From Ruminococcus sp. (GTDB lineage Bacteria > Bacillota > Clostridia > Oscillospirales > Ruminococcaceae), in assembly GCA_017525915.1 (NCBI GenBank), contig JAFXSC010000026.1, positions 62,001 through 126,000 on the forward strand: a stretch of 64,000 bases of DNA. The letters are read 5' to 3'. Under the pieces are notes generated by a model, which was not told the origin of the DNA, did no database searches, and was given only the letters and a program-made list of their open reading frames with translations. Numbering within the stretch: the first letter of the stretch is position 1; each line of letters starts with the position of its first letter. Of this stretch, positions 5,662 through 31,170 are shown in pieces. Made by a program: the position numbers and the translations under genes.

Positions 5662-6887
5662 GCTCTGACCTCCTTGCGCTGATTGTCGATGAATATGGAA
5701 TTAATGCCGGTGAAAGCGAACTCCTCATAGCCCTTTGAGCGCATGAAGGAGAGTATCTCCTGATTTTTTGCGCCGACGGTAAGGGTGCTGCTGTACTCTA
5801 TCATCTCGCATATTATTATCATCGGACGGAACTTAGCGAAGTCTATCATCCTGAGTATCGTGAGCTCCATGCCCTCAACGTCGATGTTCATGAGCTCCGG
5901 AGCCTTTTCGCTGAAATGCTCCCTGATTATCTCGTCTATGGTTATCGAATCGACGGATACGGTCTTTTCGATGCTGAGGGCAGGATTTTCCCTGATGAAG
6001 CCCTGTGCAGCCTCATAGTCCATAGTCGAGAGCCCGTCTCCGCTCATAATGTAGAAGTCGAGCTTCGTACCGGGCTTGTCCGAGATGCACCTGTTTATGA
6101 CGATATCGCGCGGACGCTTCTCCGAAAGCTCCTGTGTGAGCACAGGGTTTGCGTCAAGAAGCACACCGCTCGCACCGGAAAGATAGAAGCTGAATGTATT
6201 GCTCAGCTCAACGGCGTGATTTGCGCCAAGGTCAAGATAGCGTATTCCTGCCGGGTCAATGCCGGAGGTATTGAAAATATACCTTACGACCGAGTCCTCA
6301 CCGGACTGCGAGAATGAAAGAGCGCCCTTGCCTGCATCAGCAAAGCTCAGCATACCGTTCCCTCCATTAAAGAGATAATTCATTTTTTCCACATTATCGA
6401 GCCTTCTGCGGAGCTCATCTACGGCTGCCGAGAGCTCGGCACCGGAGTTCTCACAGGCGTCAAGACGGCGGTTTGTCTCGCCGAGCGCCTCGGCATTCCT
6501 TGCGACATTTCCGCTCAGAGAGCCTATCGCTGCACTGTGTCCCTCCATATTCTTCATGCCGCAGCGGAGGGTATTTATCTCGCTGTTGACCTGAGCCGAG
6601 AAGATGTTGTTGGCGCAGTTGTACTCCGTCTGCTGCATCATGCAGGGCTCAACGTACCAGAAGGTAAGACGGCGCATGAGTCGTTTCACAAGGCGGGATA
6701 TCTTCCCCTTGAAGCCTGCCGCCGGTATCGCGCGGTAGCTGCGGTTGACCGAGGTCTTGTTCATTTTGTCGAGCGAATCGAGCATTACCGTGTTGATGCC
6801 GCTCGTGTCTATATGAGCCTCCTCTCCGCTCCCGGAGAGCTTTTCGAGAATGACTTCCTTTATTAGCTTATCGCTTTCGATACTCAC
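5658..6887 (-). CDS. FkbM-family SAM-dependent methyltransferase with N-terminal coiled-coil
   Basis: 409 aa if started at the GTG at 6887, preferred because GGAGG lies 8 nt upstream and the stop of the ABC ATPase overlaps it (GTGA). An ATG at 6902 is in frame but lacks a ribosome-binding site. Residues 71-81 carry MRRLTFWYVEP, shared with the small protein at 815-1225; residues about 95-185 look helical/coiled-coil. The methyltransferase domain follows: YLDLGAN (217-223) is motif I for SAM, LLDANP (243-248) is the acidic ribose-binding position, and MNIDVEGMELTIL (333-345) is the FkbM signature. FkbM enzymes usually O-methylate sugar hydroxyls; here the growing or finished surface glycan is the likely target, possibly as a chain-end cap before export. 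Confidence 0.88.
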   Translation of the reverse strand: MSIESDKLIKEVILEKLSGSGEEAHIDTSGINTVMLDSLDKMNKTSVNRSYRAIPAAGFKGKISRLVKRLMRRLTFWYVEPCMMQQTEYNCANNIFSAQVNSEINTLRCGMKNMEGHSAAIGSLSGNVARNAEALGETNRRLDACENSGAELSAAVDELRRRLDNVEKMNYLFNGGNGMLSFADAGKGALSFSQSGEDSVVRYIFNTSGIDPAGIRYLDLGANHAVELSNTFSFYLSGASGVLLDANPVLTQELSEKRPRDIVINRCISDKPGTKLDFYIMSGDGLSTMDYEAAQGFIRENPALSIEKTVSVDSITIDEIIREHFSEKAPELMNIDVEGMELTILRMIDFAKFRPMIIICEMIEYSSTLTVGAKNQEILSFMRSKGYEEFAFTGINSIFIDNQRKEVRA

Positions 6888-8191
6888 TTTCCGATCCTCC
6901 ATTTATGCGGTATACTGAAATAGCCTGTGCTCCTGTCGTCAGAAACGACCTCGAAATCGCAGTAATTCCGGTAAAAATCCATCGGTGTCCCGTTGTTGTC
7001 AACAACAGCAACGTTGAGAAGATACTTTCCTGCAAGCAGCGGCAGCCCGAGGACATCTACCGCGACCGTGCCAGTTGTACTGTCCGTTTTCACGGTTATA
7101 CGGTCGAGCTGGGTATTGTTGCCGTAGAGGCACTCGCCCTCGAGGGTGTAGAATCCGAAGCCGAAGATATACTCATCGAGCGGCTTGTTGACCTTGAAAT
7201 CAATTTCTATCGTGAGGTCACTGCCTGCCGGGAAGATACGGCTGTCCTTGCCGGAAGCGCCTATCATCCGTGCCTTGGTTATCTCGATATACTTTAGTCC
7301 GAAGCGGTTCGCAGTATAGTCAATACCGTCCCCGGAAGTCTGCTCCTGCTCCGGAGGCTGCTCCTCCGCAGGCTGTTCCTCAGCCGGGACTTCCTCGGGA
7401 GGTTCCTGCGAAGCCTTTTCAGCGGCGGCAGCTTCCTCAGCCTCGATGCGCTTGTGGTTCATGAAGTTGAAGTAGGCGTCAACGACCTCGGGGGAGCGAC
7501 CCTCCTTGACGATAAGACCGTCGTTCAGCCATATCGCCCTGTCGCAGAATTTCTCGATGGTCGAGAGGTCATGGGTGACTATGATTATGGTTATGCCTGC
7601 GGCTTTGAGCTCTCTCAGACGGTTGAAGCACTTGGTCTGGAAGTTTGTGTCGCCGACCGCAAGTATCTCGTCTATCAGCAGTATGTCCGCGTCAACGTTT
7701 ATCGCTACCGAAAAGGCAAGGCGCATATACATACCCGAGGAATAGGTGCGGACCGGGTTGTCGATGAACTCCGCAAGCTCCGAAAACTCAACGATATCGC
7801 TCAGACGGGCGTCTATCTCCTTCTTGGTAAGACCGAATATAGCGGCATTCGTGTAGATATTCTCCCTTCCGCTCATATCCGGGTGGAAGCCTGCACCGAG
7901 CTCGATAAGGCTCGAAACTCTGCCGTTCATGGTGATAGTGCCGCTGTCGGGGTACATGATGCGCGTGAGCAGCTTGAGGGTCGTGCTCTTTCCGCAGCCG
8001 TTATGCCCGATGAGACCGACCGCCTCTCCATTCTTCACGGAGAAGCTTATGCCCTTCAGGACGTCCCTTATCTCAAATCTGCTTCTCTTGCGGAAAAGCA
8101 GGCGCTCCTTGAGCTGAGCGCCCTTGTCGGGATAGACCTTGAAGTGCTTTGTTATATTATTTACTTCGATTGCATTTCCGTTTCGCTCCAT
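6884..8191 (-). CDS. Polysaccharide/teichoic acid-type ABC exporter ATPase (Wzt/TagH-like)
   Basis: 435 aa from the ATG at 8191, which has GGAGG 7 nt upstream and overlaps the permease stop by 1 nt (TAATG); a longer in-frame reading upstream is rejected. The nucleotide-binding domain has Walker A GHNGCGKST (62-70), the signature YSSGM (150-154), Walker B ILLIDE (170-175) and the switch histidine in VTHD (205-208). A low-complexity Glu/Pro linker (EEVPAEEQPAEEQP) joins it to a C-terminal beta-rich domain (about 300-435) resembling the Wzt C-terminal domain, which in O-antigen exporters recognises the methylated or otherwise capped end of the glycan. The adjacent FkbM methyltransferase supports a cap-recognition model, though this is inference. 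Confidence 0.92.
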   Translation of the reverse strand: MERNGNAIEVNNITKHFKVYPDKGAQLKERLLFRKRSRFEIRDVLKGISFSVKNGEAVGLIGHNGCGKSTTLKLLTRIMYPDSGTITMNGRVSSLIELGAGFHPDMSGRENIYTNAAIFGLTKKEIDARLSDIVEFSELAEFIDNPVRTYSSGMYMRLAFSVAINVDADILLIDEILAVGDTNFQTKCFNRLRELKAAGITIIIVTHDLSTIEKFCDRAIWLNDGLIVKEGRSPEVVDAYFNFMNHKRIEAEEAAAAEKASQEPPEEVPAEEQPAEEQPPEQEQTSGDGIDYTANRFGLKYIEITKARMIGASGKDSRIFPAGSDLTIEIDFKVNKPLDEYIFGFGFYTLEGECLYGNNTQLDRITVKTDSTTGTVAVDVLGLPLLAGKYLLNVAVVDNNGTPMDFYRNYCDFEVVSDDRSTGYFSIPHKWRIGK

Positions 8192-8967
8192 TATAGTTCC
8201 TCCGCAAAATGTCTTTGAAGCTTGTTGAACACCAGACAGCCTATCAGCAGGAAGAACAGTCCCAGCGATGCCGCAGAGAGCAGCGAGGTGAGGTCCGGTA
8301 CCTCCTTGCTGTAAAGCACAGACCGGTAACACTCGATGACATGGGTCATCGGATTGAGGTTGAATATCGGGAGAAGCCTGTCGGGAACTATGGACTTATC
8401 GTACATAACAGGTGTCATATACATCCAAGCCATCGCAACTATGCCGAGGATATGCTCGAGGTCCCTGAAATATACCGTGACCGCGGAGGTCAGGAGAGCC
8501 ATTCCAAGGGCAAGGACGTATTCGACTATCATTATGACCGGAAGGGTAAGCAGCGCAAGGAAGTTCACTCCGACGCCCGTGCATATCACCACAGCAAACA
8601 CCACGATAAAGCAGAGGAGCATATTCACGAAACAGCTCGTGACATACGAAATTGGTATGACCATTCGTGGGAAGTATATCTTCTTCACGAGATCCTTCTG
8701 TGCCACGACCGAAGCCGCTCCGACCGTTATCGCAGAGGAAAAGAATATCCAGGGTATCAGCGCAACGAAAAGGTAGAGATAATAGCGCTCTATCGTCGTT
8801 TTAAGTATGAACGAAAATACCATGGTATAAACGATCAGCTGGAAAAGGGGGTTGATGAACGTCCACAGAAATCCGAGGACCGAGCCTTTGTAACGCCCTC
8901 TGAGGTCTTTTTTAACAAGGCTGAATATCATCTGTCTGTAAGCATACAGCTCTTTAATAGTATTCAT
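8191..8967 (-). CDS. ABC-2 type polysaccharide exporter permease (Wzm/TagG-like)
   Basis: 258 aa from the ATG at 8967 with AAGGAG 6 nt upstream. An ATG 33 nt earlier is rejected because the promoter at 9012-9040 would start transcription only a few bases before it. The sequence has the ABC-2 pattern: a basic amphipathic N-terminus (LVKKDLRGRYKGSVLGFLW), six hydrophobic segments, and the conserved NPLFQLIVYT and MYMTPVMYD stretches. It pairs with the following ATPase to move an undecaprenyl-linked glycan out of the cell. It is the first gene of a seven-gene, tightly packed operon running to the left edge. Confidence 0.93.
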   Translation of the reverse strand: MNTIKELYAYRQMIFSLVKKDLRGRYKGSVLGFLWTFINPLFQLIVYTMVFSFILKTTIERYYLYLFVALIPWIFFSSAITVGAASVVAQKDLVKKIYFPRMVIPISYVTSCFVNMLLCFIVVFAVVICTGVGVNFLALLTLPVIMIVEYVLALGMALLTSAVTVYFRDLEHILGIVAMAWMYMTPVMYDKSIVPDRLLPIFNLNPMTHVIECYRSVLYSKEVPDLTSLLSAASLGLFFLLIGCLVFNKLQRHFAEEL

Positions 8968-9011
8968 TTGTTTCTCCTTCAAATACGCACAATTTTCCAT
9001 TGTATCATATT

Positions 9012-9241: not shown

Positions 9242-9310
9242 TATGATAAGGAAATTATGCACTGCGGCGTTTTTCCATTCATCGACATTATTTTTTCAGG
9301 GGGGAGCAAT

Positions 9311-9904
9311 ATGAAAAATACAAGACAAAAGGGTTTCACACTTATTGAGATCATCGTAGTTATCGCTATCATAGGCGTTCTTTTATCGATACTTATTCCT
9401 TCGATGATAGGCTATGTCAGAAAAGCAAGAAAGACTCACGATATGAACAGCGGTAAGCGTATCGCCGAAAGCGTCATGGCGGTACTCAGTGAAAAGGAAC
9501 GCGGCGACGGCTCGTTCTATTCAACTACAAACGAATCAACAAGCCCGCACTGGAACAAGACCGACCCAGTTACCAGTGAGAACTACAACCTCATCGTAGT
9601 AGCCGTTATGAACGGCGGTTCCGGCTGCAACGGCGCCTTCTGGAACTGGACAGAGAACGATCCGGCATATAAGGAGTTCACTGATCTGCTCAATGACGAA
9701 ATGGGCTATTCTCCGAGCAATACCCGTACCAACATTGATATAAAGTACCAGCCTAAGGACGCTGCAAAGCCCCTCAACCGCTGGTTCATATGCTACCGTT
9801 CAGACGATGCGAGCGAGATCGAGATATGGGTAGGAAACGGCAGCAGCCAGAGCTGGGGCAAGGGCGAGCCGATGTACAGAGTATATCCCAAGCCTGCTTA
9901 TTGA
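9311..9904 (+). CDS. Type IV pilin-like prepilin, copy 1
   Basis: 197 aa from the ATG at 9311 (GGGGAG upstream). The N-terminus is a class III prepilin signal: a short basic leader, then G|FTLIEIIVVIAIIGVLL with glutamate at position 5 of the mature protein, cut and N-methylated by prepilin peptidase. The hydrophobic helix would hold the pilin in the membrane before assembly. The C-terminal head ends RWFICYRSDDASEIEIWVG and YRVYP-PAY, closely matching copy 2 downstream. Ruminococcus albus has a comparable pair of adjacent pil genes linked to cellulose adhesion (recalled from the literature). No pilus assembly ATPase, platform protein or peptidase gene is in this window, so they must be elsewhere. 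Confidence 0.9.
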   Translation: MKNTRQKGFTLIEIIVVIAIIGVLLSILIPSMIGYVRKARKTHDMNSGKRIAESVMAVLSEKERGDGSFYSTTNESTSPHWNKTDPVTSENYNLIVVAVMNGGSGCNGAFWNWTENDPAYKEFTDLLNDEMGYSPSNTRTNIDIKYQPKDAAKPLNRWFICYRSDDASEIEIWVGNGSSQSWGKGEPMYRVYPKPAY

Positions 9905-10040: not shown

Positions 10041-10688
10041 ATGAGGAAAACTGCAAAGGGCTTCACGCTTATCGAGATAATTGTCGTTATTGCTATTATC
10101 GGTATTCTCGGAGCAATTCTCGTTCCTTCTCTCCTCGGCTACGTCAGAAAGGCAAAACGCACCTCTGACATCGCCTCTGCCAAGGAGATCTTCAACAACA
10201 CTATCCAGATCATCGACTCGGAAGAGGACATCACCTGGTGGAGTTCTTCCAGAAGCGCCTATGTCAAGACCAACGCCATGAATTCTTTTTACAGCCCTAA
10301 CGGCTCATCCATAAAGAAGATCAAGGCCGGACAGTATAAGCCCGACGTTTTCCGCAAGGTCGACGAGGAAGGAAATATATACTACCTCATACCGGTCGTT
10401 ACTCTCGGTCCAAAGACAAACGGACGCTGGCTCCAGATAGACCAGGAACAGACTCCTTTCGCAACACAGCTCAGCGACCAGATGGCAAAGAGCACAGGCG
10501 GAAAGGTTAACGTGCCGATAAAGTATGAACCGAAGGGGCAGAGCCCTGAACTCAATACATGGTTCGTGTGCTACCGCAGCAACGACGTCTCACAGATAGA
10601 GATATGGGTCGGGAACTATTCCTCCGGCTCCGTCTATGGTGGTTCAGGCGCACCTATCTACCGTGTATATCCGGAACCGACATATTGA
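10041..10688 (+). CDS. Type IV pilin-like prepilin, copy 2
   Basis: 215 aa. The leader MRKTAKG|FTLIEIIVV has the prepilin cleavage site with the conserved E5, followed by a hydrophobic helix and LGYVRKAKRTSDIASAKEI. The C-terminal part ends WFVCYRSNDVSQIEIWVG and YRVYPEPTY, parallel to copy 1, while the middle (about residues 50-150) differs, as expected for exposed pilin surface. It has its own promoter 41 nt upstream, so the two pilins can be expressed in different amounts. It is likely a surface fibre subunit involved in adhesion; a pseudopilin of a secretion system is an alternative. Confidence 0.9.
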   Translation: MRKTAKGFTLIEIIVVIAIIGILGAILVPSLLGYVRKAKRTSDIASAKEIFNNTIQIIDSEEDITWWSSSRSAYVKTNAMNSFYSPNGSSIKKIKAGQYKPDVFRKVDEEGNIYYLIPVVTLGPKTNGRWLQIDQEQTPFATQLSDQMAKSTGGKVNVPIKYEPKGQSPELNTWFVCYRSNDVSQIEIWVGNYSSGSVYGGSGAPIYRVYPEPTY

Positions 10689-14725: not shown

Positions 14726-15567
14726 TATTCATTTTCCTCCCTGATAAGCTGCTCGATAACAGCATCGTCTATTGCATAGGTATGTTCCTGTGCCGGGAAA
14801 GTTCCCGCCTTTGTCTCGTTTATATAGTCGGTTATGCCCTGTCTCATGACTTCGCCTGCGTTTGCGAACTGCTTTACGAACTTAGCGATATGTCCCGATG
14901 TAAGTCCGAGCATATCCTGATATACGAGCACCTGACCGTCACAGCCAACACTTGCACCGATACCGATAGTAGGTATTGTGAGCTTTGAGGTGATTATATC
15001 AGCAAGCTTTGCAGGGATACCTTCAAGGACGACCATGCACGCACCTGCATCCTGTATCTTTATTGCGTCTGCAACGAGCTTCCTTGCAGTTTCAATGCTC
15101 TTGCCCTGTACCTTGAAGCCTCCGAAGGCGTTCACCGACTGGGGAGTAAGTCCGAGGTGAGCAACAACAGGTATCGAAGCCTTTACGATAGCGCTTATCT
15201 GCTCGCAGACCTCTGCGCCGCCTTCAAGCTTTACAGCGTTGGCATTGCCCTCCTTGATAAGTCGTCCGGCATTGATAACTGCTTCCTGAACGCTCACCTG
15301 ATAGGACATGAAAGGCATATCAGCAACGATAAAGGCATTCTCCGCGCCCCTTGCAACAGCCTTTGTATGGTGGATCATATCCTCCATAGTCACGGGAAGG
15401 GTGTTCTCATAGCCAAGCATTACCATGCCGAGCGAATCTCCGATGAGGATAGAGTTTACCCCGCATTCATCCATGATCTTAGCGGTGGTGTAGTCGTAGG
15501 CGGTAAGCATAGTTATCTTGTCGCCTGTCTGCTTCTGTTTCAAGAGAGTGGAAACCGTATTTTTCAT
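14725..15567 (-). CDS. panB: 3-methyl-2-oxobutanoate hydroxymethyltransferase
   Basis: 280 aa. It contains [20 protein letters not shown] and [20 protein letters not shown] (metal-binding DS), plus [10 protein letters not shown] near the end. The TIM-barrel enzyme adds a one-carbon unit from methylene-THF to ketoisovalerate, giving ketopantoate, the substrate of the reductase that may be the protein at 11662-12519. It is the first gene of the pan operon; its leader at 15568-15650 has no convincing promoter hexamers beyond a TACAAT-like box. Confidence 0.97.
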
Positions 15568-15654
15568 AGCTATTCTCCTTATAATAACGTTACCTTTCCA
15601 TTACGGATAAGATACAATTCTATTGTACATCATAAATATGAACAAATTATGAAC

Positions 15655-15689
15655 AAAACGGGCTTTCCGGAAATTTTTCCCGTTTTTTT
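15655..15689 (-). terminator. Terminator of the ulosonic acid operon
   Basis: AAAACGGG (15655-15662) pairs with CCCGTTTT (15679-15686) around a loop that holds TTTCCGGAAA. On the minus strand the hairpin begins at the stop codon of the ATP-grasp gene and ends with TTTTG. It could also stop transcription on the plus strand, where T7 follows. Confidence 0.7.
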
Positions 15690-16866
15690 ATTCCATGACT
15701 ACCTTTATGCGGTCGTTATAGCCTGTTATCTCACGGTTCATGGTCTCCATATCGTCATATGTGAAGTAGATATGCGCTATCTTTTCCGTTAGGTGGTTGT
15801 TTATCCTTCCGCCGTCGGGAATATTGACGGTCGTCTTGAAGGTACGCTGCTTTATATCCTCCGGCAGCGACCAGCTCCGGAGAATTCCCTCGGTGTCAGC
15901 CATAACACCGTAATGTCCGCAGAACTTCGCCTTCGGCGGCTCGCAGATGATGCCTTCAAGGCTCATGCCGAGTGCCGCGCGGATATAAGCCTCCTCCCAA
16001 GGAAAGCCCGTCATCACATCGGCAAGGAGAAGCGTCTCGTTGCCGAAGCAGCGCCGCATCATGTCGATGACGTAGGGTACTCCGTCCTTCACGATGTACT
16101 GGAAGGAGAGTATGCCGTCCGCAAGTCCAAGGTCCTCCGCCATTGTCAGCATGACGCTGTGAAGCTTGTCCCGGACCGCGGAGAAATTCTCTGCCGGATA
16201 TGTCTCCGCCTGCACGAGATAGGGATTTTTCATGCAGTAGATATTGCTCGACGAGGTAACAGCTATCTTCCTGTCCTTCATGAATACGACAATGGACTGC
16301 TGTATTCCCTCGATGTACTGCTCTATGAGCACCTGCTTGGTGCGTGAGAGCCGGAAAGCCGTGTCTATCGCCGCATGAGCCTGCTGTATATCGTCCGCAC
16401 GGGATATGCCCTTGCCGCCGGTGAGGTCGCTTGCCTTGACGACTATCGGGTATTCGCAGTCCGCGCAGTAAGCCTTCGCCTCGTCAGCTGAGGAAAAGAC
16501 CTTGTAGAAGGGCGTAGGCAGTCCCTTCGAGATGAAGTAGTCCTTGAACTCGTTCTTGTGATGCATAAGCCTTGCGTTTGCGTAGGTATCGTGACCCTTC
16601 CAGCCCATATTTTCGGCAACATATGCTGAGGTTATAACGCCGAAGTCGTTCGCACAGCTCACGATTCCCTCTATGCTGTTCTCACGGACGAGCCGGAGTA
16701 CCGCCTCGCAGTCGGAATAGTCCTCCGGGATATATTTGTCAGCGACCTTGTGACCGGGAAGCTCCGGCATATTGCCTGTCGTAACAACATATAAGCCCAT
16801 TTCCTGAGCCTTTTTTATTATCGGTATCTCACTTATCGTACCGTTGAGTATGAGTATCTTCTTCAT
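15688..16866 (-). CDS. ATP-grasp ligase of the KdsA operon
   Basis: 392 aa. It has an N-terminal Rossmann-like pre-ATP-grasp domain (MKKILILNGTISEIPIIKKA), then the ATP-grasp region: YPIVVKASDLTGGKGISRAD (glycine-rich lid and catalytic lysine), VLIEQYIEGIQQSIVVF, and FQYIVKDGVPYVIDMMRRCFGNE for the Mg2+ site. ATP-grasp enzymes join a carboxylate to an amine through an acyl phosphate. In this operon the carboxylate could be that of the ulosonic acid itself (amidation or amino acid attachment), but this is inference. It overlaps the SDR gene by 4 nt (ATGA) and is the last gene of the operon. Confidence 0.8.
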   Translation of the reverse strand: MKKILILNGTISEIPIIKKAQEMGLYVVTTGNMPELPGHKVADKYIPEDYSDCEAVLRLVRENSIEGIVSCANDFGVITSAYVAENMGWKGHDTYANARLMHHKNEFKDYFISKGLPTPFYKVFSSADEAKAYCADCEYPIVVKASDLTGGKGISRADDIQQAHAAIDTAFRLSRTKQVLIEQYIEGIQQSIVVFMKDRKIAVTSSSNIYCMKNPYLVQAETYPAENFSAVRDKLHSVMLTMAEDLGLADGILSFQYIVKDGVPYVIDMMRRCFGNETLLLADVMTGFPWEEAYIRAALGMSLEGIICEPPKAKFCGHYGVMADTEGILRSWSLPEDIKQRTFKTTVNIPDGGRINNHLTEKIAHIYFTYDDMETMNREITGYNDRIKVVME

Positions 16867-17768
16867 ATATTTTCCTTTTCAAGCTCCTCGATATAATGGT
16901 CGATAAGACCGTATATCCAGCTTTTGTGCTCTGAGAATACAATGCCGGAACGCTTTGCCTTCTCATTTGAATACAAGGTGTCGTCCGCAAAACCGTTATA
17001 CGGTGCAGGGGCGCCTTCACTGCTTATCACAGCCTTTTTGCCGGTCTGCTTTTCGGTATATCTGAGGATATCCTCTATTGTAAGATAGCCGTCACAGCAG
17101 CCGTTGAGGGGACCGCTCACGTCAGTTCCGAGCAGATCCGCAAAAAGAGACGCGGCTTCCTCCGCATACATATACGTAACTTTTTTTGTGAGATTGCTGA
17201 TATACATGGGCTTTCCGGAAAGGGTATGTTCAATGTAGAACCTCAGGCGCTTCGTGTAATCGCCCCTGCCCATAACGACAGGATAGCGCACCATAACGCA
17301 CTTTTTCTCCGGCAAGAGCAGTGCCGCGGCACTTTCAGCCTGACGCTTTCCCTCGTCATAATCAAAATCACCGGCGGTATCATTGCCCCAGCGCCGTTCG
17401 CCCCAGACAATGCCGTAGGAATACGGGTCGAAGCATTCCTCACCTATTGAAAGTCCGCGTCTGTCGCCGTAAACTCCGCAGGTGGACATCAGTATATATC
17501 TGTCAAACGAGACGTTTTCCGCGACCCTTTTTACATCATTCGAGGAAAATGCTATCTTGTCGATAACGGCGTCGTAATGCCTGCCTTCAAACGCACTGTG
17601 TATGCTTTCTGCGTACCTGTGGTCAAAGGTGATGCGCTCAACGCTGTCCCCGAAGCTGTCGGGAGTAAGTCCTCTTGTAGCAACCGTCACATTATGCCCG
17701 TCCTCAACGAGCCTTCTGACAGTACCGATGCCGAAAAACCTTGTACCGCCCATTACAAGTATATCCAT
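16863..17768 (-). CDS. NAD-dependent epimerase/dehydratase (extended SDR)
   Basis: 301 aa. MDILVMGGTRFFGIGTVRRL has the GGTRFFG nucleotide-binding loop (7-13). The catalytic pair is Y137 and K141 (DYDEGKRQAES), with S95/T96 in LMSTCGVYGD. This architecture acts on nucleotide-activated or free sugars (epimerase, dehydratase or reductase). It starts 6 nt after the cytidylyltransferase with AGGGG upstream and overlaps the ATP-grasp gene by 4 nt. It may tailor the CMP-activated sugar made by its neighbours; the exact reaction is not predictable. Confidence 0.85.
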   Translation of the reverse strand: MDILVMGGTRFFGIGTVRRLVEDGHNVTVATRGLTPDSFGDSVERITFDHRYAESIHSAFEGRHYDAVIDKIAFSSNDVKRVAENVSFDRYILMSTCGVYGDRRGLSIGEECFDPYSYGIVWGERRWGNDTAGDFDYDEGKRQAESAAALLLPEKKCVMVRYPVVMGRGDYTKRLRFYIEHTLSGKPMYISNLTKKVTYMYAEEAASLFADLLGTDVSGPLNGCCDGYLTIEDILRYTEKQTGKKAVISSEGAPAPYNGFADDTLYSNEKAKRSGIVFSEHKSWIYGLIDHYIEELEKENI

Positions 17769-17774
17769 AACAGC

Positions 17775-18440
17775 TTACCCCTGTGCTTTTTCCCTGTAAT
17801 AGCGGTATATCACCTGAGCAAGCTCCCAGTCCTTCTCCGTGTCAATATCGACAGTAGGCTCATAGGAATCAAACCAGAAGGGCTTCTCGCCGACCATATA
17901 TCCTACCTTCTCGATGCACTCACGGGTGAGTATCTCGTTCGCCCAGCTTATCTGGTATACCGGAGGGATATACTGCGAATACTTGTGCCAGTGACCGAAG
18001 CCGAAGCCTATCGGGTCGTGATCCTTTCCGAGGAAATATTTTTTCAGCGGATAGACAACGTTCAGCGAGTCATGCTCGCCGCGCACCTCGCTCCATATCC
18101 TGAACATATCCTCATAGCTGTCAAAGAGAGGGTCCATGCAGGAGCAGTAAAGTATATCGTCGTCGCCGGGAACGTCCTTGCAGACGCCCCTCACAACATC
18201 GACCGTGTTGGTCTCGAGGAGGGTGTATCTCACATCGCGGAGTATGAAGTTTATGCCCCATTTTTCGGCAACGCTGCGGTACTCCTCGTTCTCGCAGCTA
18301 AGGAATATATCCTCCCTGCCGAAGTGCTTTATCAGCTTTGCGATGAGTATGTCCGTGAGGCTCTCGTCCCCGTAGAACGGACGGTAATTCTTCCGCGATA
18401 TCCTACGCGAATTAGCCTTTCCGAGAATAACTGCCTTCAA
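17775..18440 (-). CDS. Acylneuraminate/Kdo-type cytidylyltransferase-like protein
   Basis: 221 aa, slightly shorter than NeuA or KdsB. The start MKAVILGKANSRRISRKNY mirrors the nucleotide-binding loop of CMP-sugar synthetases (usual form PARGGSK-PRKN), and it ends in a DIDTEKDWELA motif typical of the family. It would activate a ulosonic acid with CTP. The only possible start is TTG at 18440 (an in-frame stop lies two codons upstream); AGGAGG is 11 nt before it, inside the end of kdsA. A weak start suggests low output. Which CMP-sugar it makes is uncertain, as the G-S-K residues of true KdsB are not all present. Confidence 0.75.
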   Translation of the reverse strand: MKAVILGKANSRRISRKNYRPFYGDESLTDILIAKLIKHFGREDIFLSCENEEYRSVAEKWGINFILRDVRYTLLETNTVDVVRGVCKDVPGDDDILYCSCMDPLFDSYEDMFRIWSEVRGEHDSLNVVYPLKKYFLGKDHDPIGFGFGHWHKYSQYIPPVYQISWANEILTRECIEKVGYMVGEKPFWFDSYEPTVDIDTEKDWELAQVIYRYYREKAQG

Positions 18441-18442
18441 GC

Positions 18443-19273
18443 TCAGTCAAGCCTCCTTGTCACATCGTCGTATTTTTTAGCGCGTCTGAGGATATCCGCT
18501 ATCTCCGAAAGCTTTATCTGGCTCGGACCGTCGGAAACAGCGTGATCTGGGTCGGGATGGACCTCTGCGAAGATGCCGTCAACTCCGACTGCAAGCCCTG
18601 CGTTCATCATGTATGGCGCAAACTCACGGTTGCCGGAGGTGAACTCCCTGCCGCTTCCGGGCTGCTGGACGGAGTGTGTAGCGTCGAGGAATACCGGGTA
18701 GCCGAGCTTTCTCATGTCGAGAAGTCCCTGCATATCAACGACGAGCCTGTTGTAGCCGAAGGTCGTACCGCGCTCGCAGAGTATTATCTTCTCGTTGTCC
18801 TCCGATAGCATTTTCTCAACAACGTTGTCCATATTCCAAGGCGCCATGAACTGTCCCTTTTTGATATTGACGGCTCTGCCGGTACGCGCCGACGAGAGTA
18901 TCAGGTCGGTCTGACGGCATAGATAAGCCGGTATCTGGAGGATATCGCAGACCTTCGCAGTCTCCTCACACTGCCATGTCTCGTGGACGTCGGTAGTTAC
19001 CGGCACGCCGTATTTCTCTTTGATATCATTGAGTATGGTGAGCCCCTTCTCCATGCCGACACCGCGGCCTGCGTGGAGATTCGAGCGGTTCGCCTTATCG
19101 AACGAGCCCTTGAAAATATAGTTTATATCAAGCTCACGGCAGACCTTCACAAGCTCGCCTGCGACCTCGTCGCACATCTCATAGCCCTCGATAGAACAGG
19201 GACCTGCAATGAGAGTCATCTTATTTCCGCCGATTGTCATACCGGCTATCTCAAAGGATTTTACTTCAAGCAT
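18443..19273 (-). CDS. kdsA: 3-deoxy-8-phosphooctulonate synthase (Kdo-8-P synthase), metal-dependent class
   Basis: 276 aa. LIAGPCSIEG (21-30), FKGSFDKANRS (54-64), TTDVHET, CERGTTFGYNRLVVDM, LDATHSVQQPG and EVHPDPDHAVSDGPSQ are the KdsA motifs in order. The metal ligands of the metal-dependent class are kept: C26, H200, E237 and D248 have the same relative spacing (174, 37 and 11 residues apart) as C11, H185, E222 and D233 of the Aquifex enzyme. It condenses arabinose-5-phosphate with phosphoenolpyruvate. Kdo is a Gram-negative lipopolysaccharide sugar, so a copy here, in a Gram-positive polysaccharide operon, is notable. It overlaps the cupin gene by 8 nt. Confidence 0.92.
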   Translation of the reverse strand: MLEVKSFEIAGMTIGGNKMTLIAGPCSIEGYEMCDEVAGELVKVCRELDINYIFKGSFDKANRSNLHAGRGVGMEKGLTILNDIKEKYGVPVTTDVHETWQCEETAKVCDILQIPAYLCRQTDLILSSARTGRAVNIKKGQFMAPWNMDNVVEKMLSEDNEKIILCERGTTFGYNRLVVDMQGLLDMRKLGYPVFLDATHSVQQPGSGREFTSGNREFAPYMMNAGLAVGVDGIFAEVHPDPDHAVSDGPSQIKLSEIADILRRAKKYDDVTRRLD

Positions 19274-19781
19274 TTTTCACTATCTCCTTCCATTGGTCAG
19301 CGCTTATCGTAGTCCTGCGCTGGTCATATCCGCGCGAGGCGATGCTTTCATCAAGATAAATCGAATCGTTAGGAACGTACATCGTAGATATCTCTTCAAA
19401 CACCGTTCCGGCGCGTGACGAGAACGAATGATCCTGTCCGCGGTCAACATGGAGCAGCTCTCCTGCCTCCGCAGCATATTCCTCACCGTCGATAGTCACA
19501 TCAAGGACTCCGCTGAGAACATAGAACGATTCCGATTTTATCCTGTGGTAATGGTCTGGGTATTTCTGTCCGGGGAGCATGACCACGATGCTCTTGCAGT
19601 AGTCGCGGTTCACCACGTTTATGAACAGCGCACCGACCTTCCCGAGCTTGTCCGCACCGAGGTGGTGGTAGACATTGGCAGTTGCTACCTTCGGAAGAAC
19701 TATATGTGCACTTTTCATCAGCCCGATCGCCGAGCTGAGGTATTCGTCGATCATTTTCTTTTTTTCGTCTATGCCGGTCAT
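19266..19781 (-). CDS. Cupin, possible sugar isomerase (D-lyxose isomerase-like)
   Basis: 171 aa from the ATG at 19781 (GGAG 9 nt upstream, after the stop of the methyltransferase at 19801). Cupin motif 1 is exact: G71-x5-H77-x-H79-x4-E84-x6-G91, and motif 2 (GELLHVDRGQDH) supplies the fourth ligand H118. The H-H-E-H metal site and the R-I-K-S-E-S-F context resemble single-domain D-lyxose isomerases, which interconvert an aldose and ketose. Beside kdsA and with no kdsD in view, it could make arabinose-5-phosphate from ribulose-5-phosphate. A dioxygenase or a non-catalytic sugar-binding cupin is also possible. Confidence 0.65.
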   Translation of the reverse strand: MTGIDEKKKMIDEYLSSAIGLMKSAHIVLPKVATANVYHHLGADKLGKVGALFINVVNRDYCKSIVVMLPGQKYPDHYHRIKSESFYVLSGVLDVTIDGEEYAAEAGELLHVDRGQDHSFSSRAGTVFEEISTMYVPNDSIYLDESIASRGYDQRRTTISADQWKEIVKNA

Positions 19782-19800
19782 CTGCATCATCTCCGTTTTA

Positions 19801-20910
19801 TCAGAGCGCATAAAGAGTTACATCGTATGTACCCTTCAGCATTCCGTTCATTCTCAGGTATAAGCTGTATTTTATGTCTCCGCCGAAAAGTCCGGAGATA
19901 TACTGCGGTATGGCGATAAGGTCATCACGGCGGTGGTATACCCTTATTCCGAGCGCCGGACGGTCACGGAGAATGGTCTTCTCTGCGCCCTTCAGAGCTG
20001 CAAGTTCACTGCCCTCGATATCCATAGTTATCGCGGCGCATGGCTCGTTCTTCATGAGCTCATCTATCGTTGTGAGGTCTATCCTGTCACCCTCATCGCC
20101 GAGCGAAGCATTTGCGCCCGAACCTGAGATATATGCTACTCCCTCACGATCGCTGACGCCCTTCTTTACAGTCACGATACTGTCATGACCTGCCGTTTTC
20201 TCACAGAGCGTATCATATGTGCGCGGCTCCGGTTCAAGGGCATATATCTTTCGCTTTCCCTCACAGAATGCGTCTGTCTGGAGAACGCTCTTTCCGTCAA
20301 ATGCTCCGCATTCAACGACTGCTCCAGGTCTTTCATCTGCAAACATCTTCGCAAGCTCATAGTCGTTCACATCGTCCGTGCGGAACAGCATAAGGCTGTG
20401 ACCGTCGCCGGAAATCTTGGCGTTGATGAGCTCGCACATGATGCGCTTTGAAAGCTCGTCCTCAAGCATATCATAGGTCTTTTCCAGTTCCGGAAGGTTC
20501 TGCATTATATAGCTCTGGTCTATCCAGTCAAAATCTCCGAACCACAGAGCTTCCGTCATGAGTATATCGTTCTGCGGCGAGAATTTCCGCTGTGTCCGGG
20601 TCATGATATCCCATTCCTGATCGTAGCTGTAATCAAAGGCAATGAGTATGTAAGCCTCCGGATATTTCTCCGCAGCTGCGGTGCATGACATGAGCGGAAC
20701 ACCGTTCCATAAAGTATTTTCAGCAGGGAGGAATTTATCATCGACCACAGCAAAGCTGATGCTTATACCGCAGGCGGTGAGCTTTTCAAACAGACTTTTT
20801 GCGTAAAGACCTGCACCGTAAAGTCCGACGGGACGGTCTGTCTTCTGGAGCAGAAGTATCATATCAAACAGTTTATTCGGCTTGAAAACAAGCCTGTCTC
20901 TCAATCTCAT
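19801..20910 (-). CDS. FkbM-family methyltransferase with N-terminal sugar-enzyme domain
   Basis: 369 aa and the first gene of the operon (AGGAGG upstream). Residues 29-39 read GLYGAGLYAKS, a Rossmann-type nucleotide-binding loop found in bifunctional capsule proteins; then VVECGAFDG (198-206) is SAM motif I, YALEPEP (223-229) the ribose-binding acidic residue and TMDIEGSE (295-302) the FkbM signature. So an N-terminal half that may bind a nucleotide precedes a full methyltransferase. It probably O-methylates the sugar or glycan made here. It differs from the FkbM protein at 5658-6887, which has a coiled-coil N-terminus. Confidence 0.85.
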   Translation of the reverse strand: MRLRDRLVFKPNKLFDMILLLQKTDRPVGLYGAGLYAKSLFEKLTACGISISFAVVDDKFLPAENTLWNGVPLMSCTAAAEKYPEAYILIAFDYSYDQEWDIMTRTQRKFSPQNDILMTEALWFGDFDWIDQSYIMQNLPELEKTYDMLEDELSKRIMCELINAKISGDGHSLMLFRTDDVNDYELAKMFADERPGAVVECGAFDGKSVLQTDAFCEGKRKIYALEPEPRTYDTLCEKTAGHDSIVTVKKGVSDREGVAYISGSGANASLGDEGDRIDLTTIDELMKNEPCAAITMDIEGSELAALKGAEKTILRDRPALGIRVYHRRDDLIAIPQYISGLFGGDIKYSLYLRMNGMLKGTYDVTLYAL

Positions 20911-20943
20911 AGAGCAATTCCTCCTAAAGCATTCGCTGATACT

Positions 20944-20972
20944 ATTTTATCACATTTCTCTATAAAAGTCAA
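20944..20972 (-). promoter_or_regulatory. Promoter of the ulosonic acid operon
   Basis: Minus strand: TTGACT (20972-20967) and TAAAAT (20949-20944), 17-nt spacer. The start codon of the first gene is at 20910, about 30 nt past the expected start. Confidence 0.8.
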
Positions 20973-21006
20973 TTAATTATTTGCATTTTTGTAAAATATT
21001 GCCGTC

Positions 21007-27656: not shown

Positions 27657-28499
27657 TTATTCCTTTGCAAGCTTGTCTGCAAGCGCTGCAAGGTCTTCTT
27701 TATCATAAAATTCAAGGGTGAGCATACCCTTTTTCTTGCCAAATTCAACCTTTACCCTGCGTCCGAGGCTATTATTCAGAGATATTTCCATCTCCTTGAA
27801 ATAACTGTCAATCTTCTTGTCGGAAGCCGGCTCGTCCTGCATTTCATTTGAACGCTGTGCAGCTCTCTCGACCTGACGGACGGTAAGACCGCCATCGGAA
27901 GCCTTTATAGCCGTAGCGATCATCAGTTCCTCGTTTTCAAAGCCGAGGAGAGCACGTCCGTGACCGGCAGAAAGCTCTCCGTTTTCGAGCATTTTTATAA
28001 TGCGCTCGGGAAGTGTCAGAAGTCTGACCGCGTTTGCAACAGCTGAGCGTGAGCGTCCGACCATTTTTGCGACCTTGTCTTGTGTCAGACCGAACTTCTC
28101 GATAAGCTCGTTGTAACCGTTCGCCTCTTCCATCGGGTTGAGGTTTTCGCGCTGCAAATTCTCGATAATAGCAATCTGCATTGCCTCAGAATCAGACAAT
28201 TCCTTTATGCTTACCGGAATTTCTTCAAGCCCGAGCATTCTTGCAGCACGCCACCTGCGCTCGCCGGCAACGATCTGATAACCGCCGGTGCTGATAGGAC
28301 GCACAAGTACCGGCTGGAGCATACCGTGCTCGCGTATTGAATCAGCAAGTGCAGCGATAGCTTCATCGCTGAAATTCTTACGCGGCTGATCTCTGTTCGG
28401 CTCGATCTCAGCAGTGCGAAGCGTCTTTTTTACCTGAACATCGTTGGTATTATCACTCATCAGAGCTTCAAGACCGCCGCCTAATCCACCTTTCGCCAT
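27657..28499 (-). CDS. parB: Chromosome partitioning protein ParB (Spo0J)
   Basis: 280 aa. It has the N-terminal CTP-binding domain with VAGERRWRAARMLG (the GERRxRA CTP/phosphate motif) and AIIENLQRENLNPMEEANGY, a helix-turn-helix LTQDKVAKMVGRSRSAVANA for parS, and a C-terminal dimer region ending EFYDKEDLAALADKLAKE. It loads at parS, spreads as a clamp and works with ParA to separate chromosome origins. The coding start is the ATG at 28499; its ribosome-binding site is 26 nt away, beyond a hairpin (see 28509-28531). Confidence 0.96.
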   Translation of the reverse strand: MAKGGLGGGLEALMSDNTNDVQVKKTLRTAEIEPNRDQPRKNFSDEAIAALADSIREHGMLQPVLVRPISTGGYQIVAGERRWRAARMLGLEEIPVSIKELSDSEAMQIAIIENLQRENLNPMEEANGYNELIEKFGLTQDKVAKMVGRSRSAVANAVRLLTLPERIIKMLENGELSAGHGRALLGFENEELMIATAIKASDGGLTVRQVERAAQRSNEMQDEPASDKKIDSYFKEMEISLNNSLGRRVKVEFGKKKGMLTLEFYDKEDLAALADKLAKE

Positions 28500-28508
28500 A
28501 AATCATAT

Positions 28509-28531
28509 GCATCCCGTGAGGATGCTCCTCC
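28509..28531 (-). promoter_or_regulatory. parB ribosome-binding site with hairpin in the spacer
   Basis: On the minus strand the sequence TAAGGAGGA (parA stop plus Shine-Dalgarno) is followed by GCATCC-TCACG-GGATGC, a 6-bp stem with a 5-nt loop, then 9 nt and the ATG. The linear Shine-Dalgarno to ATG distance is 26 nt, too long for normal initiation; folding the hairpin leaves 9 nt. No nearer Shine-Dalgarno and no other in-frame start is present. Confidence 0.7.
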
Positions 28532-29347
28532 TTACTGTTTTTTCTTTTTCTTGAAGCTGAAGAGCTTCTTTTTCTTTGGCAATTCGAGGGGTTCTCCAAG
28601 CAATTCGTGGCAAAGCAGCTCGTATGACTCTGCACCCTTTGAAGCCTTATCGTAGTACATTACCGGTTTTCCGTAGCTCGGAGCCTCGGAAATACGAACG
28701 TTACGCGGTATTTTTGTCTGAAATACCTTTCCGGGGAAGTGCTTCTCGACTTCCTCAACAACGTCATTTGCAACGTTCAGTCGGCTGTCGAACATTGTAA
28801 ACAGGATACCCTCTATCTCAAGCGCCGGATTGTAGTTGTTCTTGATTATTTTAATCGTATTCAGAAGCTGTGACAGACCCTCGAGCGCATAGAACTCAGC
28901 GAGCATCGGCACCATGAGAGTGTCGCAGGCAACAAGACTGTTGATGGTAATGATGCCAAGTGCCGGAGGACAGTCTATAAATATGTAGTCGTAATCGTTT
29001 TTGCATGTCAGGAGCTGCATTTTAAGTCTGTTCACACGGTTCTCGAAGTCAGCAAGCTCGATTTCACAGCCTGCAAGGTGCTCCGTAGCAGGAACTATGC
29101 TGACATTCTCAAATTCAGTCTCGACAGCAGCTTCCTGGATGCGTTTTTTACCGATCATCACGTCATAAGTTGTAGCAGAGACAGCCTTTTTCTTGATGCC
29201 GAAGCCGGTTGTCGTATTACCCTGAGGGTCAGAATCAACGCAAAGAACCTTAAAACCGCGCGAACCGAGATAAGCGGCAACGTTCACAACAGTTGTGGAC
29301 TTACCAACACCGCCCTTCTGGTTGGCAACAGCGATAATTTTGCCCAT
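28532..29347 (-). CDS. parA: Chromosome partitioning ATPase ParA (Soj)
   Basis: 271 aa. MGKIIAVANQKGGVGKSTTV is the deviant Walker A (KGGVGKST); CVDSDPQGNTTTGFG (A' motif) and YIFIDCPPALGIITINSL (Walker B) follow. The C-terminus is strongly basic (KKKKLFSFKKKKKQ), useful for non-specific DNA binding. ParA-ATP gradients move ParB-parS complexes. Downstream parB begins 33 nt later. The promoter is at 29420-29448, beside the two parS sites. Confidence 0.97.
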   Translation of the reverse strand: MGKIIAVANQKGGVGKSTTVVNVAAYLGSRGFKVLCVDSDPQGNTTTGFGIKKKAVSATTYDVMIGKKRIQEAAVETEFENVSIVPATEHLAGCEIELADFENRVNRLKMQLLTCKNDYDYIFIDCPPALGIITINSLVACDTLMVPMLAEFYALEGLSQLLNTIKIIKNNYNPALEIEGILFTMFDSRLNVANDVVEEVEKHFPGKVFQTKIPRNVRISEAPSYGKPVMYYDKASKGAESYELLCHELLGEPLELPKKKKLFSFKKKKKQ

Positions 29348-29419
29348 AAGATCTTCCTTTCAACGGTAAATCTAAAGAGAAGCAGCAAAAGCAGTCACTC
29401 TGCCCCTCATATAACTTAT

Positions 29420-29448
29420 ATTATATCACTTTTTTTCGACGATGTAAA
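29420..29448 (-). promoter_or_regulatory. Promoter of parA-parB
   Basis: Minus strand TTTACA (29448-29443) and TATAAT (29425-29420), 17-nt spacer. It is 28 nt downstream (minus strand) of a parS site, so ParB spreading could affect it. Confidence 0.75.
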
Positions 29449-29475
29449 TACGTTAATGCAAATTAGTACAAAAAA

Positions 29476-29491
29476 TGTTTCACATGAAACA
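29476..29491. promoter_or_regulatory. parS-like site 1
   Basis: TGTTTCACATGAAACA, one central change and one C/T change from the Bacillus parS consensus TGTTCCACGTGAAACA. It sits between noc and parA, 8 nt from parS site 2. Confidence 0.8.
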
Positions 29492-29499
29492 TTTTGAAT

Positions 29500-29515
29500 T
29501 GTTTCACGTGAAACA
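29500..29515. promoter_or_regulatory. parS-like site 2
   Basis: TGTTTCACGTGAAACA, a perfect 16-bp palindrome with one base different from the Bacillus parS consensus. It lies 7 nt past the stop of noc, between noc and parA. Confidence 0.9.
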
Positions 29516-29521
29516 TTATGC

Positions 29522-30340
29522 TCATATTCTGTTCTGAATCGGTATCCTTACACGGTATTCAATATAATCTTCGTTCTGAATTTTACGCGAATCTGCGGAA
29601 ATTCCAGCAGCCTGCATCGTCTCTACCGCCTTGTTGATCGTATTGATGAACAGCTTGACATTTTGGAACACCTTAGAACGCTTTTTCAGACTTTCCTTTG
29701 CATTTTCATTGTTGATATACTCGTCAACTAGTTTTTCAGTACGCTCAACGTTAAGCTTATTCTTGATAATCTTTTCAAGCAAAGTCAACCTCTCAGCAGG
29801 ACTCGCAAGACGTAGTAGGGTCCGCGCGTGCCTCTCAGTAAGATTATACTTAATAATCAGCTCGCGTTCGTCATTAGTAAGCCGCAGCAGTCTGAGCTTA
29901 TTTGCAACTGTACTTTGCGCCCTTCCAAGTTTGATAGCAGCTTCGTCCTGTGTAAGACCATAGTAGGTGATAAGATTATCAATTGCAATTGCCTCTTCAA
30001 AGAAATTGAGATCCTGGCGCTGAATATTCTCGACAAGCGCAAGTATTGCCGAGTCCCTGTCGCTGATATCAATAATTATGCACGGAACAGCTTTCAATCC
30101 ACATAATTTTGCAGCGCGAAGTCGCCTCTCGCCAGCTACAAGCAGATAGCAATCATTATATCTTCGTACCGTCAAAGGCTGAATTATCCCATTATGTAAA
30201 ATTGAATCAGCAAGTTTACCAATATCACACTCGTTGAATTCTCGTCTCGGCTGAGCTGGATTTGGCTGTATACGCGAAGTATCTACCTCAATTACTTTGT
30301 TTACAGTTTTCTCTTTAGCTAAACTTAAAAATCCTGCCAT
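29522..30340 (-). CDS. noc: ParB paralogue, nucleoid occlusion factor-like (Noc)
   Basis: 272 aa. The ParB fold is complete: IQPNPAQPRREFNECDIGKL, LLVAGERRLRAAKLCGLKAV (GERRxRA), LVENIQRQDLNFFEEAIAI, and the HTH LTQDEAAIKLGRAQSTVANK. Position next to rsmG and mnmG is the classic place of noc. Noc binds specific sites, spreads with CTP and stops division over the nucleoid. The coding strand is clearly AT-richer than parA and parB nearby. It could instead be a second ParB-type protein; the N-terminal membrane-targeting helix of Bacillus Noc (KHPFSRFFGL-like) is not obvious here. Confidence 0.85.
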   Translation of the reverse strand: MAGFLSLAKEKTVNKVIEVDTSRIQPNPAQPRREFNECDIGKLADSILHNGIIQPLTVRRYNDCYLLVAGERRLRAAKLCGLKAVPCIIIDISDRDSAILALVENIQRQDLNFFEEAIAIDNLITYYGLTQDEAAIKLGRAQSTVANKLRLLRLTNDERELIIKYNLTERHARTLLRLASPAERLTLLEKIIKNKLNVERTEKLVDEYINNENAKESLKKRSKVFQNVKLFINTINKAVETMQAAGISADSRKIQNEDYIEYRVRIPIQNRI

Positions 30341-30405
30341 AGTGTAACCTCGTTTCTGATAAAATTTCTATAAACATAATAACACTTACAGGAAATAAAA
30401 GCTAC

Positions 30406-30441
30406 AAAAAAATTCCGCCAATTTGCGACAAATCAGCGGAA
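30406..30441 (-). terminator. Intrinsic terminator after rsmG
   Basis: On the minus strand TTCCGC (30441-30436) pairs with GCGGAA (30418-30413), with an inner ATTTG/CAAAT pairing, followed by TTTTTTT. It separates the mnmG-rsmG unit from noc. Confidence 0.88.
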
Positions 30442-30463
30442 AATTATTCAATAAATATTCATT

Positions 30464-31168: not shown

Positions 31169-31170
31169 AT

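Follow-up and report, generated by a model that had tools for sequence, protein, structure and literature searches.

A six-gene operon on the minus strand (positions 15688-20910) of a 64,000-nucleotide stretch of DNA from a gut Ruminococcus sp. (assembly GCA_017525915.1, contig JAFXSC010000026.1; in the following called the window) encodes a Kdo-8-phosphate synthase (KdsA; Kdo: 3-deoxy-D-manno-oct-2-ulosonic acid) that adjoins a small cupin protein. On balance, we favor the reading that the operon makes an activated Kdo-type acid for a Gram-positive surface glycan, with the cupin in place of KdsD, which provides arabinose-5-phosphate (A5P) in the canonical KdsD-KdsA-KdsC-KdsB pathway. Among the pathway steps only the identity of KdsA is well supported, the others being derived from protein family and genomic context. 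Kdo is usually tied to Gram-negative bacteria, as the original prediction made for this DNA pointed out. Its occurrence in a Gram-positive organism cannot in itself count as the novelty, since a Gram-positive Kdo island with the genes kdsB, kpsC, kdsD, kdsC and kdsA is in print for Bacillus coahuilensis GIm2d (PMC4744853, in excerpt) and loci of the KdsD type occur in 16 Bacillota. The novel element seems to be the cupin, standing in for KdsD in this KdsA lineage, while the Kdo pathway itself is known.

KdsA and its constant neighbors

The KdsA protein (18443-19273, minus strand; a metal-type 3-deoxy-8-phosphooctulonate synthase) exceeds the cut-offs of two KdsA models (TIGR01362: 368 bits, cut-off 314; NF003543: 386 bits, cut-off 242), and its best matches in the PDB are Kdo-8-phosphate synthases with 222-285 bits, compared to approximately 102 bits or less for 3-deoxy-D-arabino-heptulosonate-7-phosphate (DAHP) synthases. 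A placement among the DAHP synthases had been set beforehand as the outcome speaking against a Kdo operon. In a tree of 92 rows, built by a quick method from the matched regions with Shimodaira-Hasegawa-like approximate likelihood ratio test (SH-aLRT) support without bootstrap and with NeuB left out, the DAHP synthases (7 rows) split from all KdsAs with an SH-aLRT value of 100, and the 15 cupin-linked KdsA rows, two of which represent the same assembly, form one group with the same support. DAHP-synthase identity is rejected on the basis of this split and the two cut-offs. The wider alternative, that the protein is a DAHP synthase-like enzyme or another aldolase and that no Kdo is made, is hardly credible: it could draw on the distant similarity to DAHP synthase models (at most 142 bits; NF006421: 141.6 bits, cut-off 335) and on a third KdsA model that is not reached (NF009109: 292 bits, cut-off 457), but besides the above it would have to accommodate a KANRS motif found in 20 of 20 aligned KdsAs, once with T for S.

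Furthermore, the four metal-ligand residues on which the original prediction relied, C26, H200, E237 and D248, are all present in the window KdsA and, as read from the alignment, mark the metal-dependent form of the enzyme. Across 20 aligned sequences (14 cupin-type KdsAs, described below, and six others, with and without KdsD) K55, K60, N62, R63, D95, K138, R168, H200, E237 and D248 are invariant, and C26 is found in 19, only the Moraxella sequence carrying N instead (L108; L and G numbers denote loci and genomes, respectively). The residues of the phosphoenolpyruvate (PEP) and A5P sites are named for the Neisseria KdsA, and the window positions were matched to them via the KANR motif (PMC6650799, in excerpt); besides the metal ligands, eight reported active-site residues are conserved. 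These comparisons strongly support a genuine metal-type Kdo-8-phosphate synthase, for which condensation of A5P and PEP is predicted.

KdsA loci were surveyed in GTDB genomes using peptide patterns of the window KdsA; this confirmed 374 relatives, of which the 80 best were analyzed. The gene order cupin-KdsA-cytidylyltransferase occurs in 13 of these 80 loci (L032-L044), which together with the window makes 14 genomes; L005/G192 and L033/G298 are the same assembly, with identical coordinates and matches, and were counted once. The 14 genomes belong to the Ruminococcaceae, the Lachnospiraceae and relatives, the KdsAs of L032-L044 are 71-98% identical to that of the window, and, among the named relatives found, a metagenome-assembled genome of Ruminococcus flavefaciens (L032; KdsA 98% identical) is the closest. 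The cupin gene is adjacent to or overlaps kdsA in all 14. For the remaining 67 loci, KdsD lies within 3 kb of KdsA (measured between midpoints) in 45 and neither KdsD nor the cupin was detected in 22; one cupin locus, L044, was flagged for both owing to a nearby short SIS protein. Bacillota loci without the cupin have KdsD near KdsA in 16 of 16 cases (11 from the survey plus L002-L004, L120 and L121).

The accessory genes are less constant. Counted over the 14 cupin-type loci, some of whose stretches end early, an ATP-grasp gene is present in nine, an FkbM-like gene in seven, divergent in the relatives, and a gene similar to short-chain dehydrogenases/reductases (SDR) in eight, in L035 approximately 4 kb away and on the opposite strand. 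The constant core is cupin-KdsA-cytidylyltransferase, to which SDR, ATP-grasp and FkbM are added as variable decorations. The role of KdsA as Kdo-type synthase in the originally described six-gene set stands, whereas the SDR does not belong to the core, a second FkbM-like gene taking its position in the nearest relative (L032), and the cupin, the constant partner of KdsA, had been given no role at all.

Profile searches for KdsD (TIGR00393) covered 27 genome labels, with one assembly represented under two labels. KdsD was found above the cut-off in none of the 14 cupin-type genomes but in all 12 used for comparison, of which 11 are Bacillota and one is a Paludibacter. The source genome (3.09 Mb, 99.9% complete) yields no KdsD at an E-value of 1e-5, whereas the same loose search gives matches in 14 of 14 control genomes, above the cut-off in three of them; for KdsC it contains one HAD match of 22.7 bits (cut-off 106.95). 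The absence of KdsC and KdsD, for which this type of search had been proposed, was thereby confirmed genome-wide, and the route therefore differs from the textbook one, as originally predicted, with a Kdo-type synthase and a cytidylyltransferase-like protein but without KdsC, KdsD and WaaA. KdsC is present in 9 of the 14 cupin-type genomes and adjoins the core in eight of the loci, which makes its absence a local one. As a separate observation, KdsA is followed by a KdsC-like domain within one long open reading frame (approximately 450-485 amino acids) in most of the loci L045-L060 from Paludibacter-type Bacteroidales.

Of 35 genomes searched, all 14 of the cupin type, but none of the other 21, contain the stand-alone cupin, scoring more than 250 bits with a cupin profile; further matches in these 35 were two NeuB fusions in G302 and G318, at approximately 158 bits, and three weak matches below 31 bits. 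KdsA is rare among related genomes, exceeding the cut-off in 5 of the 297 searched in the family and 3 of the 391 in the class. Among the 297, the stand-alone cupin above 250 bits is restricted to G000 and G192, both with KdsA, and the other three genomes with KdsA (G008, G202, G257) have KdsD beside it; G246 carries a NeuB-cupin fusion and G114 a 53-bit cupin. No strong stand-alone cupin without KdsA was found among the 35 and the 297 genomes.

Relationship of the cupin to D-lyxose isomerases

The Pfam family Lyx_isomer (PF07385) matches all 14 cupins, although weakly, at an E-value of 0.01 or better (best 2.3e-7), and the next specific cupin family, AraC_binding, matches 10 of them. The cupin of the window (19266-19811, minus strand) was assigned to the D-lyxose isomerase type on the basis of its colinearity with PF07385, a profile-profile comparison, a PDB match and its place beside KdsA. 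The PDB entry 2y0o, labelled a probable D-lyxose ketol-isomerase, is matched by the cupin profile with an E-value of 6.8e-8 over two stretches in colinear order, extending from the N-terminal part as far as the ExS...D region near the C-terminus, and hhalign with 10 PF07385 proteins gave a probability of 97 and an E-value of 1.2e-10 over 131 columns, this being one pairwise comparison with no control family, which lowers its weight. In a joint alignment of 27 sequences (14 cupins, three NeuB-fused cupins and 10 PF07385 proteins; numbering from the start at 19811) 16 residues are invariant and occur in the same order: G52, G60, Y71, Q82, P85, H87, H89, K92, E94, G101, G117, H128, E140, S142, D149 and R165. 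The motif HxHxxKxE is found in 14 of 14 cupins, in 3 of 3 fused cupins and in 10 of 10 PF07385 proteins, and is not present in two other cupin-like frames (L150, and L136 with 11.4 bits). The window-type cupin therefore resembles the D-lyxose isomerase superfamily (PF07385, with the correspondingly labelled PDB entries 2y0o and 7nzo) in the HxHxxKxE motif, the second histidine, the ExS, the aspartate and the arginine, all in the same order, but it is shorter, does not contain the inserts of the PF07385 enzymes and is placed with KdsA. In the D-lyxose isomerase of Escherichia coli the metal is presumably bound by two histidines, a glutamate and a later histidine, with the lysine being catalytic. 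The aldoses formed by D-lyxose isomerases share the C2 configuration of A5P. An A5P isomerase function of the cupin would agree with both this family relationship and the genomic context.

Several points weigh against this function. The highest PDB score of the cupin profile goes to a quercetinase, and a cupin labelled as mannose-6-phosphate isomerase also outscores the D-lyxose isomerase, both on the cupin core alone. Each of the two stretches shared with 2y0o is weak when taken singly (i-Evalues of 6.4e-4 and 2.4), the 10 PF07385 proteins obtain 10.8-23.3 bits from the cupin profile, and the window cupin stays below the gathering cut-off of Lyx_isomer (18.6 versus 20.8 bits). Moreover, all 17 cupins share H49, H50, K73, R124 and E139 without exception, none of which appears in any of the 10 PF07385 rows, so that the two active sites are not identical; the substrate is likely to differ from that of the PF07385 enzymes, and the known D-lyxose isomerases use unphosphorylated sugars. 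The conservation of these five residues suggests that some of them may hold a phosphate. At the genome level, the cupin-type KdsAs fall into one clade, and the exchange of KdsD for the cupin thus counts as one event and not as 14, and most of the 14 assemblies are draft or metagenome assemblies, which makes single KdsD absences soft.

The short SIS proteins belong to the same side of the balance and are the principal argument against a clean exchange. A protein of approximately 200 amino acids with 91-105 bits to KpsF (cut-off 203.7) is present in four of the 14 cupin-type genomes (G304, G306, G307, G309). It lies upstream of the cupin in the same cluster in L044 (G309), where the gene forms one open frame across the whole domain in a three-frame read, and on the same contig as the cupin, approximately 8 kb away, in G306. 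This protein is possibly a short A5P isomerase, although of the SIS family without CBS domain and not a cupin, and its occurrence shows that the cupin and such a possible isomerase can coexist. It may also serve another sugar, as suggested by the comparison genome G312, which has full KdsD and the short SIS protein together, and by a second copy on another contig of G309, which is part of a module of NTP-transferase, SIS, HAD and MptE-like genes with neither KdsA nor cupin within the 8 kb examined. The short SIS proteins sit in this NTP-transferase/SIS/HAD type of module. In four stretches (L142: 2601-4705; L143: 3045-5525; L144: 567-3023; L145: 10-2513) a fused nucleotidyltransferase/kinase-like protein stands beside a short KdsD-like SIS protein, in three of them followed by a small HAD-like protein (by eye), with the HAD of L142 located elsewhere (952-1323). 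The other 10 cupin-type genomes, the source genome included, reach at most 43.3 bits with the KdsD model, and some of these matches cover the CBS part only.

In three genomes the cupin forms the C-terminal part of a fusion with a NeuB-family synthase (L140 in G302, 5021-6520; L141 in G318, 5878-7401; L149 in G246, a frame of 516 amino acids). The fused cupin of L141 exceeds the Lyx_isomer cut-off (26.9 versus 20.8 bits), and G302 carries both the fusion and a cupin-KdsA locus (L037). The cupin family is thus associated with PEP-dependent ulosonate synthases of two kinds. The fusion fits an isomerase that supplies an aldose but also a role on the products, and it could signify that the cupin acts after the condensation, which would speak against a replacement of KdsD. 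The neighborhood of the L141 fusion contains a GmhA-like gene as well as an RfaE-like gene and a thiamine-diphosphate-type enzyme, the last two assigned by eye.

Proposed pathway and alternative explanations

According to the pathway we propose, the cupin would convert ribulose-5-phosphate to A5P and so take over the task of KdsD on a metal-dependent fold that is unrelated to it. KdsA, as its family, its position in the tree and its residues indicate, would join A5P and PEP to Kdo-8-phosphate, from which a phosphatase would strip the phosphate; this could be KdsC in the 9 genomes encoding it and would be another phosphatase in the source organism. The cytidylyltransferase would then yield the CMP-sugar, as suggested by its family, and FkbM, SDR and ATP-grasp proteins, a set varying by strain, might modify the sugar further, with O-methylation, redox chemistry or epimerization, and amidation as conceivable reactions. 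A chemically novel ulosonic acid is a possible product. If the cupin is an A5P isomerase, evolution has invented the initial step of the Kdo pathway twice, on unrelated folds, and annotation relying on KdsD alone would miss Kdo producers. A more far-reaching idea, which we put forward tentatively and with less than even confidence, is that cupins of the D-lyxose isomerase type constitute a second class of A5P isomerases, unrelated in structure to the first, and a portable aldose module for PEP-dependent ulosonate synthases. In one lineage this module would stand alone, with its gene abutting or overlapping kdsA; in another it would be fused to NeuB-like synthases, and this form could supply a synthase resembling that of 3-deoxy-D-glycero-D-galacto-nonulosonic acid (Kdn) with a mannose-type aldose.

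It is less likely, but deserves serious consideration, that the cupin works downstream of KdsA, e.g., by epimerizing or isomerizing Kdo or CMP-Kdo, with A5P coming from an unrecognized isomerase or from free arabinose and a modified Kdo as the product. The fusions to NeuB-like synthases argue for it, as the usual hexosamine substrates of these synthases are not products of aldose-ketose isomerases; so do the short KdsD-like SIS proteins of four genomes, one of them in the cupin cluster, and the accessory SDR, FkbM and ATP-grasp genes, which suggest a decorated sugar. On the other hand, no KdsD-like SIS protein above 44 bits occurs in the 10 remaining cupin-type genomes, among them the source genome, the combination of KdsD and short SIS in G312 means that the latter need not supply A5P, and the cupins share the residues that characterize a family of aldose-ketose isomerases. 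An isomerase role of another kind, which we consider improbable, would have the cupin produce a different 5-phospho-aldose (e.g., lyxose-5-phosphate from xylulose-5-phosphate) and this KdsA lineage a Kdo stereoisomer, i.e., a new ulosonic acid. D-lyxose isomerase as the nearest specific cupin family, a cytidylyltransferase that is not KdsB and the separate clade of the cupin-type KdsAs would be in line with such a product, but the KdsA site residues are kept with and without KdsD, giving no sign of altered substrate recognition, and PseF-like enzymes replace KdsB in KdsD-containing operons as well.

Finally, the operon might be an ordinary, horizontally acquired Kdo island in which housekeeping enzymes fill the missing steps and the cupin is an unrelated passenger. 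Its patchy distribution, seen in the counts of KdsA in family and class and in its absence from all four further genomes tested within the genus, is what such an island would leave, and a Gram-positive Kdo island is known from print (PMC4744853, in excerpt). We judge this to be very improbable, as a passenger would not be expected to adjoin or overlap kdsA in 14 of 14 genomes and to be missing, as a strong stand-alone protein, wherever KdsA was missing in the genomes searched; moreover, a compositional island is not supported, the GC content being 0.47-0.54 over 15000-21000 compared to 0.50-0.56 in the flanking stretches. Our preferred reading, with the cupin ahead of KdsA in place of KdsD, shares with the canonical Kdo pathway a genuine KdsA, a cytidylyltransferase-like protein and, in 8 of 14 loci, KdsC beside the core; it departs from it in that none of the 14 genomes has a full-length KdsD, the cytidylyltransferase is not of the KdsB type and the source genome contains neither WaaA nor KdsC. 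With the Gram-positive KdsD islands (B. coahuilensis, Sporosarcina L081, Lederbergia L084 and several Lachnospiraceae) it has in common a Bacillota KdsA beside sugar-activation genes and no WaaA (11 genomes with such islands searched), but those islands have KdsD (16 of 16 Bacillota loci) where the cupin is found here. An A5P isomerase has reportedly also been described from Clostridium tetani. In the literature covered, to which most subscription journals do not belong, no relevant paper was found that links an A5P isomerase or KdsA/Kdo with a cupin, A5P with lyxose isomerase, or a cupin with NeuB or nonulosonic acids, nor one on the catalytic residues of D-lyxose isomerase as a cupin enzyme.

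Sugar activation, acceptor and surrounding genes

The cytidylyltransferase-like protein (17775-18440, minus strand, TTG start) matches PF02348 with 25.3 bits (cut-off 22.6) and PseF with 38.6 bits (cut-off 205.7), and its profile weakly matches NeuA (9t4z, E-value 3.6e-4) and a CMP-N-acetylneuraminate synthetase (1qwj, E-value 0.005) in the PDB. It is 69-85% identical to the corresponding proteins of the 13 other cupin-type loci. No KdsB model is among the matches of this protein at an E-value of 0.01, kdsB not having been searched for genome-wide. We propose that it is a distant relative of NeuA/PseF rather than KdsB and acts as a CMP-ulosonate synthetase. Among KdsD-type Bacillota loci, a PseF-like cytidylyltransferase replaces KdsB in L070, L078 (weak), L082, L084, L088, L090, L092, L106 and L121, and KdsB is kept in L002-L004, L077, L081 and L120.

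A WaaA-type Kdo transferase (PF04413) was found in none of the 14 cupin-type genomes, with E. coli, Caulobacter and Bacteroides positive as controls, and in none of 11 KdsD-type Gram-positive genomes searched. The Maf protein of Clostridium botulinum can transfer Kdo when it is supplied (PMC11339370, in excerpt). An MptE-like/Maf protein was not found in the source genome; it is encoded beside the core in G308 and G309, in G304 as well, although below the family cut-off, and in six KdsD-type genomes it shares a contig with KdsD at a distance of approximately 2-7 kb, which suggests glycosylation of flagellin or other proteins in those genomes. The original prediction pointed to a nearby Wzm/Wzt-type export operon. 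The pair, with a Wzt_C domain, is indeed present (6884-9000, by family scan), but a functional link to the operon gains no support, as no homologue was seen in 14 related loci: tblastn of four window proteins (E-value 1e-8) gave no match in L005 and L032-L044 (13 genomes), in stretches of at most 7 kb on either side, several of them shorter, so that copies farther away are possible. Together with a second FkbM methyltransferase and a double glycosyltransferase family 4 (GT4) protein, the exporter forms a separate surface polysaccharide cluster (3136-9000).

All six minus-strand genes with their tight junctions were recovered as originally described, and family scans back each name. The first gene encodes an FkbM-family methyltransferase (19801-20910; PF05050: 47.6 bits, cut-off 22.7; TIGR01444: 58.9 bits, cut-off 37.7), and the last two an SDR similar to NAD-dependent epimerases/dehydratases (16863-17768; PF01370: 38.3 bits, cut-off 20.9), for which a PDB search returned nothing at 1e-6, and an ATP-grasp ligase (15688-16866; PF01071 and PF02786 above cut-off) with PurD, carbamoyl-phosphate synthase and L-amino acid ligase as PDB relatives. 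FkbM and cupin genes overlap by 11 nucleotides if the longest reading frame is taken or are separated by 19 nucleotides if the cupin starts with the ATG at 19781, which is likely to be the true start, as the orthologue in L032 indicates. Cupin and KdsA genes overlap by 8 nucleotides, the gaps between KdsA and cytidylyltransferase and between cytidylyltransferase and SDR are 2 and 6 nucleotides, and SDR and ATP-grasp genes overlap by 4 nucleotides. The single clean promoter is the weak point of the original prediction: the promoter-like site upstream (20972-20944, minus strand; TTGACT-17-TAAAAT with TG ahead of the second hexamer, 10/12 consensus matches) is no better than the shuffle background, with seven such sites in the region compared to 6.2 (sd 2.3) in shuffles, and a site with a better score (11/12) falls within the FkbM gene.

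Two further regions of the window were annotated by eye. Two tandem type IV prepilin-like proteins (GFTLIEIIVVIAIIG) are encoded on the plus strand at 9257-9904 and 10041-10688. Moreover, two ParB/Spo0J-like genes and one ParA-like gene stand beside gidB- and gidA-like genes at 27657-33045, an arrangement as found near the chromosome origin.

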